From Methanothrix harundinacea 6Ac (GTDB taxonomy: Archaea > Halobacteriota > Methanosarcinia > Methanotrichales > Methanotrichaceae), in NCBI RefSeq assembly GCF_000235565.1, contig NC_017527.1, forward strand, positions 1,364,001-1,428,000: a stretch of 64,000 nt of DNA, given 5' to 3'. A model generated the notes under the pieces. It saw only the letters and a program-made list of their open reading frames with translations. It made no database searches and was not told where the DNA came from. The position numbers and the translations under genes were made by a program. Position 1 is the stretch's first letter. Each line of letters opens with the position of its first letter. Shown piece after piece: positions 20,369 through 29,733 of this stretch.

Positions 20369-20757
20369 CCCCTCCTCATAATCATCTTTGTGATCTCCTT
20401 AGCGCTCAACACCTCATCCTCGGTGGGCTCGATCAACACCTGTGCCCCCTTGTAGAGGGGCGAGCCCGTCGAGAAGGTCTCGGGATCGACTACGACGTTC
20501 GCCCAGATCGCTCGCGGCATGAAGACCTGCCCCGGCGGGATAGACCCGTCCTCTCTGGCATGGACTGCCACGCTCCGGCTTCCATCCACCTCCGCGACCC
20601 TGACCCTATTGGGCCGCCCCAGGACCTCGAAGTCTGCGGGATTAATGGAGCATACGGCGCATTCCATCTTGTAGGCCTCGGTGAACTTGTCTCCGCCCTT
20701 GGCGAGCCTCCCCTCGTTTATGGTGCTCCCGCTGTTCAGCAGGACGACCAGGCTCAT
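20365..20757 (-). CDS. fmdD: Formylmethanofuran dehydrogenase subunit D
   Basis: 130 residues, equivalent to the C-terminal molydopterin-dinucleotide-binding domain of other Mo enzymes, encoded separately as is usual for this complex. The beta-barrel core includes ALWANVVVDPETF-like sequence near residue 95 and CAVCSINPADFEVLG near 38. It overlaps fmdC by ATGA upstream and fmdB by GTGA downstream, so the subunits are translationally coupled. Confidence 0.93.
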   Translation of the reverse strand: MSLVVLLNSGSTINEGRLAKGGDKFTEAYKMECAVCSINPADFEVLGRPNRVRVAEVDGSRSVAVHAREDGSIPPGQVFMPRAIWANVVVDPETFSTGSPLYKGAQVLIEPTEDEVLSAKEITKMIMRRG

Positions 20758-21578
20758 ATCATCGCCTCCCTGGCGTAGAGGACCCCCTTCGGGCTCTTGC
20801 TTATGGCGTAATCTCCGGTGAACTTTGCGAAAATCCCCTCGACCCTCCGGCCTCCGATCGTCGGGTCGACCTCGGAGCCCGCGGCAACAAAGCCGGGGGT
20901 GAACTGTTGGATCCTGCCTAGGACGACGATCGATCCCCCGACCATCTCGGCCCCGACTCCCCTGACAGCGTCTTTTCCCACCACGATCAGGCCGCCATTC
21001 TGCCGGATGCCGCAGAAGTTCTCAACGCTGCCTCCGACGACGATCTCGCCTCCGGCCATCCCCCCACCGAGCTGGCTTCTCGCATTCCCGCAGATGAGGA
21101 TCTTCCCGCCGGTCATGCCGCGCCAGCTGCCCCGGTAGGCAGAGCCCGCGTGATCTCCGACGTCTCCTCCGACCTCCAGGAGGCCTCCGGTCATGTTCAT
21201 CCCCGCCCAGGGGCCGGCGTTCCCCCTCACTCGGATCTCGCCTCCGGCCATCTCAGACCCGAGGTGCATCCCAGCCGAGCCGCGGATCTCGATCCTGCCG
21301 GAGGTCATCCTCTGGCCGATCCTCTTGACCCGTGACGCGTCGCCGTCGATCAGGATATCGACCGCCGATACCCCATCTACCGTCTTCTCATCCGTCACAT
21401 CAATATCAAAGAATTCCGAAATATGTGCCCCTCTCGGCCCCTGCCAGACCGCAAGTCTGCCGATCTCTCTCTCAGACCTTCCGGCGAAGATGTCCGGTGA
21501 GATCGACTCCGCCTCGATCATTATCTCGATCTCGCCCTTTGGGGAGAGCCTCACTTTCCTGGTCAGAACCATCACCAT
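20754..21578 (-). CDS. fmdC: Formylmethanofuran dehydrogenase subunit C
   Basis: 274 residues. Structural subunit with a right-handed beta-helix built from GxxGxxxG-like turns, seen here as MHLGSEMAGGEIRVRGNAG, WAGMNMTGGLLEVGGDVGDH, MTGGKILICGNARSQLGGG and MAGGEIVVGGSVENFCG. It resembles the C-terminal domain of glutamate synthase and holds the FmdA/FmdB pair in place. Its start overlaps the fmdA stop by a few bases. Confidence 0.95.
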   Translation of the reverse strand: MVMVLTRKVRLSPKGEIEIMIEAESISPDIFAGRSEREIGRLAVWQGPRGAHISEFFDIDVTDEKTVDGVSAVDILIDGDASRVKRIGQRMTSGRIEIRGSAGMHLGSEMAGGEIRVRGNAGPWAGMNMTGGLLEVGGDVGDHAGSAYRGSWRGMTGGKILICGNARSQLGGGMAGGEIVVGGSVENFCGIRQNGGLIVVGKDAVRGVGAEMVGGSIVVLGRIQQFTPGFVAAGSEVDPTIGGRRVEGIFAKFTGDYAISKSPKGVLYAREAMI

Positions 21579-23341
21579 CCCCCCTCAGCGCCGTTGACGA
21601 CGATCGCCTCCGGGTTCCTCAGATACTTGTCCGGCACCGGGTAGTTCGCAAAGCCGATGGTGTAGTACTTGAACCACTCACGAACGTCAGCCATCATATC
21701 TTTCGTAAGACTCTCGTCGACCTCGGGCTTGCAGTAGAACCTCCTCCCGTCGGGGATGTTGACGATCTCCCCGTCCCTGACGACGACCTTTCCGTCCTTT
21801 ATGGTTAGATCGGCCCGGCTGAAGGCCCTTATCACTTCATCGGAGTCGGCGGGGTTGAAATTCTCGGGGTCGATGTCGTAGACGGCGACGTCCCCGTCAG
21901 CCCCCGCCCCCAGGTGGCCCTTCCGATACGCCATGCCGATGGTCCTGGCAGCGTTGGCCCTGGTTAAGATGGCGATCTCAAAGAGGGTCATCTCCCTCTC
22001 GACCCCGCCGAGGCTGGACCGATCGTACCCCCACTTATGGCACTCGGCGGCGGTCGCATCCCTCGCCCGCCTCGACATCAGCCAGGCTATCACCTGGGGG
22101 TACTTGGTGAATACCCCGCCGTTGGGGTGGTCTGTCGTCATGATCGTCTTCCAGGGGTCGTCCACCATGAGGAGCATCTCCAGGCCTATCGCCCACTGGA
22201 TGGCGCTGATGGGGTTACCCTTCAGGTAGGTGAAGGGTAGTACCCCCGAGCCACACTCCAGCTCCACGTCGGTGTTCGACCACTTCTGCCCCCCGATCCC
22301 GGCGAGGACGTAGAGGTCGTGGATCGAGGGGCCGTCGCCGGTCATGCAGGTGGCTGGCCCAAAGGGGACTGCCCCGTTGTCGATCACCACGTGGTCGGCC
22401 TTGTTGACGTACCTGGCGAGACCTTCGGCCCCGGACTCGAAGTCCCTCCAGCTCGTGCCGCCGAAGGCGTTGAACTGGGCGTGGGCGAGGTAGACGCTCT
22501 GGGCTCGATGGGGGTCCATTTTCGTCTCGGCCCACTCTACCCCCATCTTCTGAACGGGGGCGAAGTCCGAGGGGATGGCGAGGGAGTCTTTTGTGATCTC
22601 GGCGTTTCCGGGGTGGCCGAGGTTGTTTGCGTGCAGGTGGAGCGAGATCGGCATCCCCAGCCTCTCGTTCACCTCGGCGAGGCCGTGGATCACCTCTCTT
22701 GCCGTCACCTCGAAGTGGATGTTCGGCTCGTCGAGGGAGTGGACATTTTTGCCCCAGCCCCAGTTCTCGACCCCAGCGGGGTTGACGCACTTGATCCCGT
22801 AGGCCTTGTGGGTCTTCATCATCCAGGCGACGTAGGCGGCGGCCTTTTCGATCTCTCCCTGGTGGAGGTAGCGCATCAAAAACCAGTTGTTTCCAAGGAC
22901 GAGGTAGGCTCCCATGTCGAGCATGGGGGTTGACCTCATCTCCTCGTGGGTGTGCCGGGCCTCCAGGGGAGGCATCGCCGCCTCAAAGACGGTGGTGTAG
23001 CCCATCGCCGAGTATTCGTACCCCTGCTTGTAGACGCTGGGAACGGTGTAGCCGGAGCCCGAGTGGGCGATCTCGGTCCTATGCCTCACGGAGCCGATGT
23101 GGTCTTCGGGGCGCATCAGCCTTCCGGCGTTCACCTTCGCTCCGGCGACGTGGGCGTGGGAGTCGACGCCCCCCGGCATCACCGTCTTTCCCCTGGCGTC
23201 GATAGTCTCCGCCCACGCGAGATCGGCTCCGGATAGGTCATTTACTACTTTTCCGTCCTTTATGAAGACGTCCATCACCTCGCCGTCGATCCCGTTGAGG
23301 GGGTCGAAGACGTGACCGTTCTTGATAAACATCGTCGGCAT
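21572..23341 (-). CDS. fmdA: Formylmethanofuran dehydrogenase subunit A
   Basis: 589 residues. Amidohydrolase-fold subunit that condenses formate made by FmdB with methanofuran to formylmethanofuran. Metal-site motifs are DSHAHVAG near residue 61, the probable carboxylated lysine in AYGIKCVNPAG near 182, and the late TTDHPNGG near 390. The N-terminal GHVFDPLNGIDGEVMDVFIK is typical of the family. The start overlaps the fmdF stop by one base (TGATG). Confidence 0.97.
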   Translation of the reverse strand: MPTMFIKNGHVFDPLNGIDGEVMDVFIKDGKVVNDLSGADLAWAETIDARGKTVMPGGVDSHAHVAGAKVNAGRLMRPEDHIGSVRHRTEIAHSGSGYTVPSVYKQGYEYSAMGYTTVFEAAMPPLEARHTHEEMRSTPMLDMGAYLVLGNNWFLMRYLHQGEIEKAAAYVAWMMKTHKAYGIKCVNPAGVENWGWGKNVHSLDEPNIHFEVTAREVIHGLAEVNERLGMPISLHLHANNLGHPGNAEITKDSLAIPSDFAPVQKMGVEWAETKMDPHRAQSVYLAHAQFNAFGGTSWRDFESGAEGLARYVNKADHVVIDNGAVPFGPATCMTGDGPSIHDLYVLAGIGGQKWSNTDVELECGSGVLPFTYLKGNPISAIQWAIGLEMLLMVDDPWKTIMTTDHPNGGVFTKYPQVIAWLMSRRARDATAAECHKWGYDRSSLGGVEREMTLFEIAILTRANAARTIGMAYRKGHLGAGADGDVAVYDIDPENFNPADSDEVIRAFSRADLTIKDGKVVVRDGEIVNIPDGRRFYCKPEVDESLTKDMMADVREWFKYYTIGFANYPVPDKYLRNPEAIVVNGAEGGW

Positions 23342-24369
23342 CAGACCACCTCCCTCTTCTCAAGCCATATCGCCTCCGTCGGGCAGATCAGGCTGCAGGT
23401 GGCGCAGGAGCCGCAGACATCCTGGTCGACCACCACGATCGCCCCGTTCTCCACCTCCAGGAGGGGCTTCTTCTCCAGCTCGTTGAGGTGGCCCGCTGCA
23501 AGATACGGGTCGGAGAGGGCGTTGACGGGACAGACGATGACGCAGTTTCCGCAGCCGAGGCAGGCGTCCCGGTCGGTCTTCAAGATGGAGGTGAGGGTCG
23601 GCCGGGGCGCGGCCTCGGAGAGCTTCTTCTCGAAGGCCTTCTTCCCCTTCATCTCCGGAACGATCGCCGTCTTTCTGACGGAGATCGCGGCCACCGGGCA
23701 GGCCTGGGCGCAGGCTCCACAGTAGATGCAGGCGTCCCTCCGGTGGGTCACCTTCTCCACGATCTCGCCCTGCCGCCAGGAGCGGTTGAAGAGGGCGTTG
23801 GCGGGACAGGTGTCGACGCAGGTTCTGCAGGCCTGGCAGATCTGATCGTCCCGGAAGAATTCTCCGGCGAAGGGCTTCTGAAAAGTGATGGCATCTTTCG
23901 GACAGACGGCGGCACACCAGCCACAGTGGACGCATCGATCGAGGTCTATCTGAATCTTTCCTTCCAGTCTCAAGCTGCCATCTTCGGCGAGCCGTCTATC
24001 CTCGAGCTCGATGCAGCCTTGGGGGCAGACCTCGGCGCAGAGGCCGCAGTGGACGCATCGTTCATTCACCAGGGTGGGACTAAGGGCGAAGTTGAGGTAG
24101 GAATCGTCCTTCTCCGCCTTGCCGGAAACTCTAACCTCCAGAGCCCCGGTAGGGCAGACCCGGGCGCATAAAGCACAGAAGACGCATCCCCCGCTATTTC
24201 GCTTCTCGAGGAACTCCTTATCGATCAGCCCCCGGGCGACGGCCCCCACAGAGCCTATCACCAGCTCTCCTTTGGGACATATCTGGACGCAGGTCCCGCA
24301 ACCTATGCACTTCTCGGGAAGATAGACCTGGGCCTTCTCCCCCCTCTCTTCCAGAAGCACCTCTCTCAT
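23341..24369 (-). CDS. fmdF: Polyferredoxin subunit of formylmethanofuran dehydrogenase
   Basis: 342 residues with eight complete CxxCxxCxxxC motifs (CIGCGTCVQIC, CVFCALCARVC, CVHCGLCAEVC, CVHCGWCAAVC, CQACRTCVDTC, CIYCGACAQAC, CLGCGNCVIVC, CGSCATCSLIC), so up to eight [4Fe-4S] clusters. In the known Fwd/Fmd structures this subunit wires the catalytic subunits to the external electron donor. In this operon it is the natural docking point for the two FdhA-type subunits encoded downstream. It overlaps fmdE by ATGA. Confidence 0.95.
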   Translation of the reverse strand: MREVLLEERGEKAQVYLPEKCIGCGTCVQICPKGELVIGSVGAVARGLIDKEFLEKRNSGGCVFCALCARVCPTGALEVRVSGKAEKDDSYLNFALSPTLVNERCVHCGLCAEVCPQGCIELEDRRLAEDGSLRLEGKIQIDLDRCVHCGWCAAVCPKDAITFQKPFAGEFFRDDQICQACRTCVDTCPANALFNRSWRQGEIVEKVTHRRDACIYCGACAQACPVAAISVRKTAIVPEMKGKKAFEKKLSEAAPRPTLTSILKTDRDACLGCGNCVIVCPVNALSDPYLAAGHLNELEKKPLLEVENGAIVVVDQDVCGSCATCSLICPTEAIWLEKREVV

Positions 24370-24977
24370 CTAATCCCCGCAGAACCGATCTCAATATTGC
24401 TCTTCGATCGTTGAGCGCAGCTTTTGCAGCTCCTCTCATCTCCCTGAAGGACGAAGCTCTCGCCGCAGGAGTTGCAGACGGCGATCCTCTTCTCCGGCTT
24501 TTCTAAAACCTCGAGGTCCACCATCCCCCAGGTGTAAACCGCCTCTTCGGCCCTGATCAGGTCCGAGATCGCCTCCTCATGAGGAACCTTATCGATCTTC
24601 ATCTGCCAGGAGTGAAGCCTCGGATAGGAGGCGGTCTTGGCCGGGTCGAGGACGGTCCTTTTGCCATTGACCCTCTCCGCACCTCGGGGAGCCCGCCTGG
24701 AGATCGTCGCCGCCATCTTCCCCAGGTTCTCGATTCTGAGCCCCTTATTTCCGATGGTGCAACCCCCCAGCACCTGAAAGGCGTCGGGCAGGCAGCTCGA
24801 AGTCTCGCAGGTGACAAAGAGCCTATCTCCTTCCGAAAATCCCAGCGTCCTTCGGGCTATGTCATAGATCTGGATGCCGACGAAGACGCCGGTGCTGAGG
24901 TAGCCGTGAAAGGGGACGACCCTCTCGATCTGCGAAAGGATCTCCGGGTCGGTTATCGATCTTATGACCTCCTCCAA
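24366..24977 (-). CDS. fmdE: FmdE-family protein (formylmethanofuran dehydrogenase subunit E)
   Basis: About 203 residues. The N-terminal FmdE domain has VPFHGYLSTGVFVG near 20, the cysteine-bearing CETSSCLPDAFQ and GGCTIGNKGLRI, and a C-terminal zinc ribbon (CNSCGESFVLQGDERSCKSC). No ATG is available at the 5' end: TTG 24977 follows GGGAGGAGG at 9-nt spacing and is chosen here; a second TTG at 25004 falls inside the promoter-proximal inverted repeat. It is the first gene of the operon. FmdE is not essential for catalysis in known complexes; metal or cofactor binding is suspected. Confidence 0.9.
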   Translation of the reverse strand: MEEVIRSITDPEILSQIERVVPFHGYLSTGVFVGIQIYDIARRTLGFSEGDRLFVTCETSSCLPDAFQVLGGCTIGNKGLRIENLGKMAATISRRAPRGAERVNGKRTVLDPAKTASYPRLHSWQMKIDKVPHEEAISDLIRAEEAVYTWGMVDLEVLEKPEKRIAVCNSCGESFVLQGDERSCKSCAQRSKSNIEIGSAGIR

Positions 24978-24997
24978 GGAAGAAAACCTCCTCCCTC

Positions 24998-25049
24998 CCT
25001 TCAAGTATCAGAAGGTTTAAGAAGGTTTGTATATTCGCTTACTTGAAGG
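24998..25049 (-). promoter_or_regulatory. Promoter and operator-like inverted repeat of the fmd operon
   Basis: A perfect 10-bp inverted repeat, CCTTCAAGTA (24998-25007) and TACTTGAAGG (25040-25049), brackets an AT-rich core with a TATA-like GAATATAC (minus strand, about 25029-25036) roughly 50 bp before the chosen fmdE start. The arm centres are 42 bp apart, four helical turns. Between them, AGAAGGTTTA and AGAAGGTTTG repeat in tandem (25010-25029). The arrangement suggests a dimeric or looping regulator binding over the promoter. Confidence 0.5.
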
Positions 25050-25400: not shown

Positions 25401-25970
25401 TCAACGGATCTCATTCAGAGGGAGAGCATCAAATCTCTCCACTATCCACCGGTTCCTCACCTCGGGGTGGAATATGATCCCGTAGACGGGCCTATCTGCG
25501 TGCTTGATGGCCTCCACCTCTCCGGGCCGCCCCGCCACCAGGTCGAAGCCCTGAGGCAGGGTAACGCCAAAGTTATGGAGGTGGTAGCCCTCGATCCGCC
25601 GGGGCGTCCCGAGGAGGGGGGTCTCCTCGACGATATCGATAGCTTCGAGGCCGATCTTCGGCTGGGGGACGACCTCGCCGCCGAAGAGGGCGGCTATGAC
25701 CTGCATCCCGGCACAGATCCCGAGGACGGGCTTATCGAGATCTCCGATCCAGGAGAACAGGTCTATCCTTCGAAGGTAGAGGTCGTCTTTGAGGGCGGTG
25801 CCGCAGAGGACGATCCGGTCGGCCCTCAGGATTTCGTCTTCGGTCACCTCGGTGAAGTGGACGACCTCAAACTCGGACCCGGCCCGGCTCACGATGCGGG
25901 CGATGGGATCGACGAACTCGCGCCTCGAGAGGGACCGGGGCCTGAAGCAGAGGTCGACGAGGAGGATCAC
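25401..25970 (-). CDS. Class I glutamine amidotransferase (GuaA N-domain-like)
   Basis: 189 residues. The nucleophile elbow GICAGMQ near residue 98 and the His-Glu pair in IFHPEVRN near 165 complete a Cys-His-Glu triad, so it should release ammonia from glutamine. It resembles archaeal stand-alone GMP synthase amidotransferase subunits in size but lacks their usual N-terminal GGP loop (here LCGTALKDD). It begins with GTG overlapping the stop of the diphthine-ammonia ligase gene as GTGA, so it may feed ammonia to that enzyme; this link is an inference. Confidence 0.8.
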   Translation of the reverse strand: MILLVDLCFRPRSLSRREFVDPIARIVSRAGSEFEVVHFTEVTEDEILRADRIVLCGTALKDDLYLRRIDLFSWIGDLDKPVLGICAGMQVIAALFGGEVVPQPKIGLEAIDIVEETPLLGTPRRIEGYHLHNFGVTLPQGFDLVAGRPGEVEAIKHADRPVYGIIFHPEVRNRWIVERFDALPLNEIR

Positions 25971-26647
25971 CTCTCCACCAGCCTCGCCTCTTTGATTATG
26001 AGACGTCCTCTATAATTATCGTACTCCTTCACCGCCTTCAGGACCTCGACCCGCCTCTTGAAGACGGGGCCGTCGAGGACTATCGTCTCGATCTCCCCCC
26101 CCTCCCCGGAGGGGTTGATGGCGTACCGGTCCCGGAGGTCTTCGAGCTTCTCGATCCGTGGACCGTCGATCCTGGCGCCGACGAAGGACTCGTCCAGGGG
26201 GTAGGCGAAGACCCCGGTGATGATCACCTCGAACCCCTCGGAGACGAGGAGGCGGAGGTACTCCAGCTGGTCGATCTGCCAGAGGGGGTTATAGCACCAG
26301 AGGTCCAGCTCCCGGCAGATCCGCTGGACCCGGGCCGCCTGGTAGACCGACTCGATCGCCCCGGTGACGATCCCTTCGACCCCGTATTCGTCCACCGCGG
26401 CGGCGATGGCGTCGGAGAGGTCGGAGAGCTCCGCTTCCTCTTCACCCGCCGTCGGCCAATTGAGCTGAGGGACTCCGACCGCCTCGGCTATGAGCCCCGC
26501 CCAGGCGATGTTGGGGGTGTGGAACATGTAGCTGTCGGGGTTTGCGGATACCATCGTTATGAGGCAGGCGACCGAATCGGTCTCCATCGCCCTCCTGCAT
26601 GCGTAGACCGAGTCCTTCCCTCCGGAGAATAGGACGCCCAGTATCAC
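25967..26647 (-). CDS. dph6: Diphthine-ammonia ligase (ATP-grasp-independent, PP-loop family)
   Basis: 226 residues. The N-terminal PP-loop SGGKDSVYA near residue 9 and the family blocks SYMFHTPN near 45, EGIVTGAIESVYQAARV near 103 and PLWQIDQLEYL near 136 match Dph6, which amidates diphthine on elongation factor 2 in the last step of diphthamide synthesis. The start is GTG 26647. Known Dph6 enzymes use free ammonium; the coupled downstream glutamine amidotransferase is therefore of interest. Confidence 0.88.
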   Translation of the reverse strand: MILGVLFSGGKDSVYACRRAMETDSVACLITMVSANPDSYMFHTPNIAWAGLIAEAVGVPQLNWPTAGEEEAELSDLSDAIAAAVDEYGVEGIVTGAIESVYQAARVQRICRELDLWCYNPLWQIDQLEYLRLLVSEGFEVIITGVFAYPLDESFVGARIDGPRIEKLEDLRDRYAINPSGEGGEIETIVLDGPVFKRRVEVLKAVKEYDNYRGRLIIKEARLVER

Positions 26648-27007: not shown

Positions 27008-28690
27008 ATGTCGTCATTGGTTTCCAGGTTCGTATCAGGGACGGAATTCGAGGCTTACGAAGAATTTAAAAATAATATGAAGATAAATGTGCCGGAGAGG
27101 TTCAACTTCGCCTTCGACGTGGTGGACGTCTACGCCGAAATGGCACCTGATAAAAAAGCCCTCGTCTGGTGCAACGACCGGGGCGACGAGCTTATCCTCA
27201 CCTTCGGGGAGCTGAAGCGGAGGAGCGACCAGGCGGCAAACTTATTTAAAAAGTGCGGCATAAGAAAGGGGGACTCGGTCATGCTGACCCTGAAGGGGCG
27301 GTACGACTTCTGGATATGCATGGTGGGGCTCCATAAGGTAGGGGCGGTGGCGATCCCGGCGACCCACATGTTGAGGGCGAAGGACATCGCCTATCGGATC
27401 AGCAAGGCGGACCTCAAGATGATCGTCTCCATCGCAGAGGACGGCGTCCCCGACGAGGTCGACGGAGCCTGCCGGGATCTCGAGGGGGCGAAGCCCGTCA
27501 GGGCCCTAGTCGGCGACGGCGTCGATAGGCCCGGCTGGCTCGACTTCCGCCGGGAGCTGGCGGCGGCTTCGCCGGAGTTTGAGCGGCCCCCGGGGCGAGA
27601 GGCGACGGAGAACGGGGACGTCCTCCTCGCCTACTTCACCTCCGGGACCACCGGCTACCCCAAGATGGTGAAGCACGACCAGACATATCCCCTGGGCCAC
27701 ATCCTGACGGCGAAGTTCTGGCAGAACGTCGTCGAGGACGGCCTCCACTACACCGTCGCCGACACCGGCTGGGCGAAGTGCGTCTGGGGCCAGATCTACG
27801 GCCAGTGGATCGCGGGCTCGGGGGTCTTCGCCTACGACTACGACAGGTTCGACGCCGGCAGGATGATGGAGATGGCGACCAAGCATGGTGTCACCACCTT
27901 CTGCGCCCCGCCGACGATCTATCGTTTCATGATCAAGGGGGATATGTCGAGGTACGACTTCTCCTCCCTCAAGTACGCCGTCACCGCCGGCGAGCCCCTC
28001 AACCCCACCGTCTACGACCTATTCTTCGAGGCGACGGGGCTGCGGCTGATGGAGGGGTACGGCCAGACGGAGACGGTCGTGGCCATCGCCAACTTTCCGA
28101 TGATGAACCCGAAGCCCGGATCGATGGGGAAGCCGTCGCCCGGTTACGACATAGTCCTCGTCGACAAGGACGACCGGATCTGCGATGTGGGGGAGGAGGG
28201 GGAGATCGTCATCAGGACCGACGAGGGAAAGCCCCCGGGGCTCTTTATCGACTACCACCTCGACCCCGATAGGATGAGAAACACCTGGCACGACGACTAC
28301 TATCATACCGGGGACACCGCCTGGATGGACGAGGACGGCTACCTCTGGTTCATCGGGAGGACCGACGACATGATCAAGAGCTCCGGCTATCGGGTCGGCC
28401 CCTTCGAGGTGGAGAACGCCCTCATGTCCCACCCGGCGGTGATGGAGTGCGCCGTCACCGGCGTCGCCGACCCCCTCCGGGGACAGGTGGTGAAGGCGAC
28501 GGTCGTCCTGACGAAGGGTCACACCCCATCGGAGGAGCTGGAGGTCGAGCTCCAAAACCACGTCAAGAAGGTGACCGCCCCCTACAAGTACCCTCGGATC
28601 ATAGAGTTCGTGGAGGCCCTCCCCAAGACGATCAGCGGCAAGATAAGAAGGATCGAGATCAGGGAGAGGGACGAGACGAGGGGCGGATGA
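27008..28690 (+). CDS. AMP-forming acyl-CoA synthetase (MACS-like)
   Basis: 560 residues of the adenylate-forming family. The phosphate loop [12 protein letters not shown] near residue 212, the YGQTE motif near 350, the hinge [18 protein letters not shown] near 437, [12 protein letters not shown] near 460 and the catalytic-lysine tail [10 protein letters not shown] near 543 are all intact. Length and motifs fit the medium-chain or branched acyl-CoA synthetases of methanogens (Methanosarcina acetivorans has a characterised homologue preferring 2-methylbutyrate) better than the 650-residue acetyl-CoA synthetase used for acetate. The substrate is not known here. The ATG has only a weak ribosome site (AGGAAGGG). 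Confidence 0.9.
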
Positions 28691-28752
28691 ATCCCCGATC
28701 GTTGAATGGGGCCCATTAGGGGATGGCGGCGCAATCCAGGGAGGCGCAGGAT

Positions 28753-29733
28753 ATGGCATACCAGGTGAAGCTGATATCGAAGGAGGAGAAGGGGGACCTG
28801 GCGGAGCGGTACGGTCTCCAGGTGAGGTATGAGGTGAAGTCGGAGATCTATGGCTGCTGCATCAAGCTGCTCACTGGATCGGAGGAGGTGAGGGACCGGT
28901 GGGAAGAGAACTTCTACAACATATCCCAGAACATAAGGTCCCACGCGAGGCTATACGTCGTCAGCGACCCCGAGATGGGGGAGGACCGGGTCTTCTACGA
29001 CCCCCAGTCCAAGACCGCCTTCCTCGTCAACGTCACCTACTACGGCTGGATCAAGTCCCTGGCCCTCAGCGCCGCCGGGGACGTCCTGGAGGACCAGCAC
29101 GGGATCTACTCCGTCCACGGCGCCTGCCTCGACCTCCGGGGCCGCGGGATCTGCCTCCTGGGCGGGTCGGGGGCGGGAAAGACGACCCACACCTACGGCC
29201 TCCTGAGGAGGCCCGAGACCCGGGTCGTCTCCGACGACTGGTTCTTCGCCCGGATCTACGGCGACGACGTCCTGGCCTTTGGCTCGGAGAAGAACTTCTA
29301 CATCAGGGCGGAGCTCTCGGAGATCTGGAGGGAGTTTGGCGGGCTCATCGAGAAGGCAGAGTTCGATGAGGAGGGGAGGGGGGTCGTCGACCTCCGTCTC
29401 GCCATCGGCAAGGGCAGGATCCTCCCCCTCACCACCCTCTCGGCGGTGATAATCCTGAAGCGCGACCCCGAGGATGAGGTGATAAAGAGGAGGCTCTCCC
29501 CCGGTGAGGCCCTCTCGATCCTGGAGGAGAACGGCTACTATAACCCCCACCTCCTGGTGAAGGACGAGTTCAAGGGGGCCCTCCGGAGCGGATTCTTCCG
29601 GGAGCTCTTCACGAGGGTCCCCGTCTTCATGGTCAACACCGTCAGGACCCCCGAGGAGAGCCAGAGGGCGATTGGAGATCTGATATCCGAAGCCCTCCGG
29701 CAGGAGGGCGGCCTCATGGGAGGGGAGCGGTGA
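28753..29733 (+). CDS. HprK-like P-loop kinase-fold protein
   Basis: 326 residues. The Walker A motif GGSGAGKTTHTYG lies near residue 140, followed by VVSDDWFFARI, which resembles the catalytic Asp region of HPr kinase/phosphorylase and PEP carboxykinase-like ATPases. The N-terminal 120 residues form an alpha/beta domain of no known family. Archaea generally lack the PTS protein HPr, so the substrate must be something else. ATG 28753 has GGGAGG at 9-nt spacing and is preferred over ATG 28723. It follows the acyl-CoA synthetase by about 60 bp and may be co-transcribed. Confidence 0.75.
   Translation: MAYQVKLISKEEKGDLAERYGLQVRYEVKSEIYGCCIKLLTGSEEVRDRWEENFYNISQNIRSHARLYVVSDPEMGEDRVFYDPQSKTAFLVNVTYYGWIKSLALSAAGDVLEDQHGIYSVHGACLDLRGRGICLLGGSGAGKTTHTYGLLRRPETRVVSDDWFFARIYGDDVLAFGSEKNFYIRAELSEIWREFGGLIEKAEFDEEGRGVVDLRLAIGKGRILPLTTLSAVIILKRDPEDEVIKRRLSPGEALSILEENGYYNPHLLVKDEFKGALRSGFFRELFTRVPVFMVNTVRTPEESQRAIGDLISEALRQEGGLMGGER

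Follow-up and report, generated by a model that had tools for sequence, protein, structure and literature searches.

A class I glutamine amidotransferase accompanying one clade of archaeal Dph6, with recurrent loss of its nucleophile

The nitrogen source of diphthamide was left open when the diphthine-ammonia ligase Dph6 was identified, and the papers of 2012 and 2013, in their available portions, point only to AsnB and RidA (YjgF) domains. Known Dph6 enzymes use free ammonium, as the original prediction for the present locus had stated and as the accessible part of PMC5354562 bears out. The closest described systems in Archaea are the AsnB-Dph6 fusions of Methanosarcinaceae (PMC3541065), in which a glutaminase-bearing domain is joined to archaeal Dph6 as a proposed ammonia source. 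The available text of that paper proposes AsnB and RidA domains as nitrogen sources, and a class I glutamine amidotransferase (GATase) is not named in it. In the AsnB-Dph6 proteins, the partner is N-terminal and consists of a class II GATase together with a second PP-loop domain, whereas the family described here has only a class I GATase, free-standing or fused C-terminally, together with a Dph6 of a different clade. In the open-licence literature we found no paper linking a class I GATase to Dph6; class II AsnB-Dph6 proteins being already in print, a diphthamide synthetase with a subunit of the class I GATase kind is apparently unreported there.

Three further systems offer comparisons. The archaeal two-subunit GMP synthetase (GuaA subunits A and B) also has a class I GATase and a PP-loop ATP pyrophosphatase encoded by separate genes, and the fold of the GATase studied here is closest to GuaA subunit A. 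However, its synthetase and substrate are different; our GATase falls well short of the GuaA cut-off and has a CGTALxD motif instead of GGP, and the synthetase gene comes first. GatD/MurT of Gram-positive bacteria, likened by description only from partly available sources, is an amidotransferase encoded by two genes that acts on a macromolecule, although with another ligase fold and another substrate (cell-wall lipid II). Finally, carbamoyl-phosphate synthetase 1 (PMC4655335, as far as its text was available) retains a class I GATase domain with ammonia as substrate: in the human enzyme the GATase cysteine is replaced by Ser294 and free ammonia is taken, the same replacement as in Methanoculleus (see below). 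Its synthetase is unrelated, and in the present family the loss is repeated, which makes sister lineages with and without the cysteine comparable.

The gene pair of Methanothrix harundinacea

The window, i.e., the whole stretch of 64,000 nucleotides of Methanothrix harundinacea 6Ac that was analysed, carries on its (-) strand a Dph6 gene (25967..26647, 226 amino acids, GTG start) and, downstream on the same strand, the gene of a class I GATase subunit (25401..25970, stop codon included; 189 amino acids, GTG start). The Dph6 stop and the GATase start overlap as GTGA (25967..25970, (-) strand, read from the DNA), an arrangement which suggests that the two genes are translationally coupled. Dph6 reached 277.6 bits with the archaeal equivalog model TIGR03679 (cut-off 197.3) and 219.9 bits with PF01902 (cut-off 23.2), and its closest solved structures are PF0828 (3rjz) and PH1257 (2d13), with an E-value of 1.8e-50. 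It has the PP-loop SGGKDS and all the residues predicted to face EF-2 in the available text of PMC3541065 (S39, Y40, E73, Y102, Q103, A148, E182, E185, and E187).

The GATase was recognized by PF00117 with 74.1 bits (cut-off 22.8). The codon of its nucleophile Cys86, within GICAGMQ, lies at 25713..25715 and the codons His168-Pro169-Glu170, within FHPEV, at 25461..25469, both on the (-) strand and read from the DNA; the Cys86-His168-Glu170 triad is intact and aligns with the motifs of GuaA subunit A. In the alignment with the latter, a family-specific CGTALKD motif (residues 56-62; 25785..25805, (-) strand) takes the place of a GGP stretch. The AlphaFold model of this GATase has a mean pLDDT of 96.5 and a pTM of 0.93. 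Open reading frames, profile scores, and DNA thus agree on the GTGA-overlapping pair of a Dph6 and a class I GATase with a complete Cys-His-Glu triad that had been originally predicted.

The source genome (2.57 Mb, two contigs) contains 10 matches to PF00117. The window GATase is not the only GuaA-type subunit among them, a situation that would have told against the original prediction: a true GuaA subunit A of 181 amino acids is located at C2:360708, with 263.1 bits against a cut-off of 198 (NF001975, NCBIfam), and the GuaA synthetase domain PF00958 at C2:368836, apart from the window pair. GMP synthesis therefore needs no Dph6-linked GATase. With the same model the window GATase obtained 75.6 bits, below the equivalog cut-off, and this score together with the real GuaA subunits elsewhere in the genome rules out that it is GuaA. 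More broadly, it is hardly credible that this protein is the archaeal GuaA subunit A, or some other known GATase subunit, that merely adjoins Dph6. Its closest solved relatives are indeed GuaA subunit A proteins, but every family member in our sample adjoins Dph6 or is fused to it (see below), and this explanation already fails on the existence of the separate GuaA subunits. Judging from their open reading frames and motifs, the other PF00117 matches include CarA, PyrG, TrpG, HisH, PurQ, and one GATase of unknown role.

The genome encodes Dph2 and Dph5, and the paired Dph6 is its only Dph6 over the TIGR03679 cut-off. A second Dph6-like protein (G000:C2:762583-763221) is below every curated cut-off that it matched (114.9 against 197.3 bits for TIGR03679), and comparable below-cut-off paralogues occur in other carriers of the GATase, e.g., G171, G275, and G013. 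Downstream of the pair and on the same strand, the window contains at 20754-25004 an FmdE-like gene, a polyferredoxin, an amidohydrolase, and a weak GXGXG match, presumably a formylmethanofuran dehydrogenase gene cluster. An AMP-binding acyl-CoA synthetase-like gene (27008-28690) adjoins the gene of a P-loop protein (28723-29733) with a sub-threshold match to the HPr-kinase C-terminal domain (27.1 against 33.3 bits).

Distribution, linkage, and fusion

We searched 294 genomes of the phylum with the window GATase and retained as members the matches with an E-value of 3.4e-18 or better, a line drawn by score before the GuaA-like matches start and borne out by linkage. The family was present in 54 genomes, each of which has, upstream of the GATase on the same contig and strand, a Dph6 that passes the cut-off, with a 4-nt overlap in 41. 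Gly57, Thr58, and Asp62 were invariant in these 54 carriers and Cys56 was found in 53. A scan of named genomes returned 80 loci, of which 72 were true members (at least 95 bits with the family HMM); Dph6 shared the strand or the reading frame of the GATase in 72/72, and 55 of the 72 showed the 4-nt overlap, as counted from the listing. The loci of the other eight GATases, which scored 58 to 87 bits, had no Dph6. Linkage in 54/54 and 72/72 cases rules out chance adjacency.

By record titles, which can be wrong for MAGs, the members belong to Methanotrichaceae, Methanomicrobiales, Archaeoglobaceae, and several DPANN groups, as well as to Bathyarchaeota, Theionarchaea, Thermoplasmata, and one Thermoprotei MAG. 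The GATase was recovered in 32 of 35 Methanoculleus genomes. Absence of the pairing in close relatives, which would also have spoken against the original prediction, was not what we observed: the GATase is present in 43 of the 50 genomes of the source organism's family (Methanotrichaceae) and Dph6 is beside it in 30/30 fetched loci, these being the best-scoring ones and not including the genus g2 with its cysteine-less copies. In G004 (L081:1696-2943), a gap of 1243 nt corresponds to an insertion, directly at the GATase start, that parts Dph6 from the GATase; judging from its motifs, it probably carries a TnpB-type transposase gene. The GATase of G327 is in two distant pieces, either through an assembly fault or through a rearrangement.

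The original prediction had proposed to look for the same pair or a fusion in other archaea, and both were found. Nine of the 72 named members are single-frame fusions, with Dph6 first and the GATase second, seven of them in Methanothrix or Methanotrichaceae MAGs and two in Methanomicrobium (one being M. mobile BP); fused loci also accounted for 8 of the 30 best-scoring Methanotrichaceae loci. The two fusion-bearing lineages sit apart on both the Dph6 and the GATase trees, and the fusion therefore probably arose at least twice. One fusion (L107) was folded from a 64-row subset of the alignment, a 116-row version (A2) having been dropped since the first part was misplaced in all 55 GATase-only rows. 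The model had a mean pLDDT of 93.8 and a pTM of 0.91, and it was mainly the linker (around residues 230-250) that scored low; given domain sizes of some 225 and 185 residues, a pTM this high would imply that the domains, and with them the interface, are confidently placed. With Foldseek and VIA-align, the first domain corresponded to PF0828 (3rk1, Z 33.6), and for the second the counterpart was GuaA subunit A (2a9v, Z 24.8). Among the structure-search matches listed there was no single solved structure covering both domains, which excludes nothing.

Types of Dph6 and their partners

A first Dph6 tree covered 41 of 63 non-carrier genomes with Dph6 and the same number, 41, of the 72 named carriers; the last one added 8 more of the 63 non-carriers, plus G340, G356, and G357. 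The trees after the first were thinned to rows with less than 80% identity. In one of these, of 102 rows, GATase-linked, AsnB-linked, and stand-alone Dph6 required two changes, the minimum for three groups (shuffled mean 29.4), with SH-aLRT supports of 84 for the GATase side, 99 for AsnB, and 96 for the stand-alone group. Six families (f1, f3, f6, f13, f22, and f23) contain both stand-alone and GATase-linked Dph6, and a Dph6 of the stand-alone type is not accompanied by the GATase. The presence of the GATase tracks the type of Dph6 and not the species.

Eight further genomes without a full-length GATase match, from Methanoculleus and the source family, provided a fresh test. Two (G356 and G357) had a stand-alone Dph6 and in five (G303, G309, G310, G343, and G345) no Dph6 passed the cut-off. 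G340 truly departs from the pattern: it encodes a Dph6 of the GATase type but lacks the GATase. Just after the Dph6 stop of this genome (L304), a short segment is similar to the C-terminus of the GATase, so that the gene looks to have been deleted there. Elsewhere, G110 has a stand-alone Dph6 and G115 has neither GATase nor Dph6. Together with G303, G309, and G310, the latter is one of the Methanoculleus or Methanothrix-family genomes without a Dph6 over the cut-off; Dph2 and Dph5 are nevertheless present in it, so that either the modification of EF-2 could end at diphthine or the assembly lacks a contig.

AsnB-linked Dph6 was found 11 times, in Methanosarcinaceae (our family f2, identified as such from the available text of PMC3541065) and two other families, with nine fusions and two adjacent pairs overlapping at the Dph6 start, in agreement with what that paper had described. 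The window Dph6 belongs to another clade than these proteins, and an HMM of the AsnB fusion gave no match of at least 40 bits in the 54 carrier stretches, the window stretch included. In three AsnB-linked cases (L232, L242, and L226) the class II nucleophile Cys2 seems to be missing, if the starts are right, a parallel to the class I losses described below. Around position 84 of Dph6 (window numbering), GATase- and AsnB-linked proteins have residues in common and 27 of 30 stand-alone rows have gaps; at position 150, 82 of 95 GATase-linked proteins have Pro, and all AsnB-linked and stand-alone rows have Gly. Judging from the alignment, these may be docking or channel features.

The pair could in principle amidate a substrate other than the diphthine of EF-2, which we regard as very improbable. 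The wider Dph6 (DUF71) family has other assigned roles, such as B12 salvage (available part of PMC3541065), and the below-cut-off paralogue of the source genome could be seen in the same light; but it is the paired Dph6 that is well over the cut-off, alone in its genome, where Dph2 and Dph5 are present. Moreover, the predicted EF-2-facing residues are largely conserved among GATase-linked Dph6: Y102, Q103, E182, E185, and E187 are invariant in 95/95, with variation at Y40 (kept in 70/95), E73 (81/95), and A148 (52/95; window numbering).

Loss of the nucleophile and the proposed role of the GATase

The GATase nucleophile was compared in 123 members, three of 126 rows having been left out (two short, one below 100 bits). 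It was Cys in 100, Ser in 20, Gly in two, and Ala in one, i.e., the cysteine was missing in 23/123. The GATase tree required four changes of the nucleophile, at least three of them forced by well-supported branches, in Methanoculleus, a Methanothrix genus (g2), M. mobile, and one MAG. In the 54 carriers of the phylum, the triad His was present in 46 and the Glu in 53 (the remaining one being a gap). The nucleophile was unreadable in one of 30 loci from Methanoculleus and in one of 30 from Methanotrichaceae. All 29 readable Methanoculleus loci had Ser, with the His mostly kept; in g2, 5/5 carriers had Ser or Ala and had also lost His168; M. mobile has Gly, whereas its sister MAG keeps Cys.

The cysteine-less genes are intact and still in place. 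Their median dN/dS, from simple Nei-Gojobori counts with few pairs in some groups, was 0.32 in Methanoculleus and 0.28 in g2, against 0.12-0.33 in the groups with Cys (Dph6 of the same genomes: 0.06-0.17). They are under purifying selection, and the idea that they are pseudogenes is not supported by these values. With the nucleophile missing in 23/123 members, the retention of the subunit in those lineages must have a reason other than glutamine hydrolysis. This repeated inactivation with retention is the part of our results that a specialist would not expect. One may speculate that free ammonium at Methanoculleus sites relaxed the need for glutamine.

We consider it highly probable, from sequence comparisons, that the window pair is a two-subunit, glutamine-dependent diphthamide synthetase and that cysteine-less lineages keep the GATase as a structural or ammonia-admitting subunit. 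The GATase would hydrolyse glutamine at Cys86 with His168 and Glu170, as its triad indicates, and would pass the ammonia to Dph6; the latter would use ATP to adenylate the diphthine carboxylate on EF-2 and then amidate it, a reaction established in print for Dph6. The GATase presumably derives from a GuaA-subunit-A-like ancestor, given their similarity, and, as synteny, fusion, and tree show, it is now dedicated to one Dph6 subfamily. Where the nucleophile is missing, it would be retained probably as a structural or ammonia-admitting part of an ammonium-dependent enzyme, comparable to carbamoyl-phosphate synthetase 1. The original prediction of a glutamine-dependent two-subunit synthetase is thus supported for the window pair but would not extend to every member, the nucleophile being Ser, Ala, or Gly in several lineages. 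Some further observations count against our explanation: G340 has a GATase-type Dph6 alone, so the partner can be dispensable, and for the yeast Dph6 the use of ammonium in the absence of any GATase has been reported (accessible part of PMC5354562).

The same losses could mean that in all lineages the GATase serves Dph6 chiefly as a structural or allosteric subunit, with ammonium as the real nitrogen source and the triad a relic in many lineages. The repeated loss of the nucleophile from a gene kept in place, the purifying selection on the cysteine-less copies, and the fact that Dph6 elsewhere works on ammonium (PMC5354562, as available) would all fit. We nevertheless hold it unlikely: Cys is kept in 100/123 members, from DPANN lineages to Archaeoglobaceae, and so are His and Glu, which is hard to explain without catalysis. 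We thus retain a glutamine-dependent enzyme as the preferred reading for the window pair. For the family at large, the balance tips slightly toward a scheme in which archaeal Dph6 acquired two unrelated nitrogen-delivery subunits, a class I GATase and a class II AsnB-like protein, with several switches from glutamine to ammonium in class I, where the subunit was kept as a needed scaffold.

For the question of the nitrogen source of diphthamide, a class I GATase that follows a single Dph6 clade and is naturally fused to it in some genomes offers a tractable enzyme pair. The repeated cysteine losses provide ready test pairs, such as M. mobile with Gly and its sister with Cys, for how a glutamine-dependent enzyme turns ammonia-dependent. 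If our reading is true, these archaea would provide a series of natural replicates of the transition seen in carbamoyl-phosphate synthetase 1, in an enzyme that modifies a protein.
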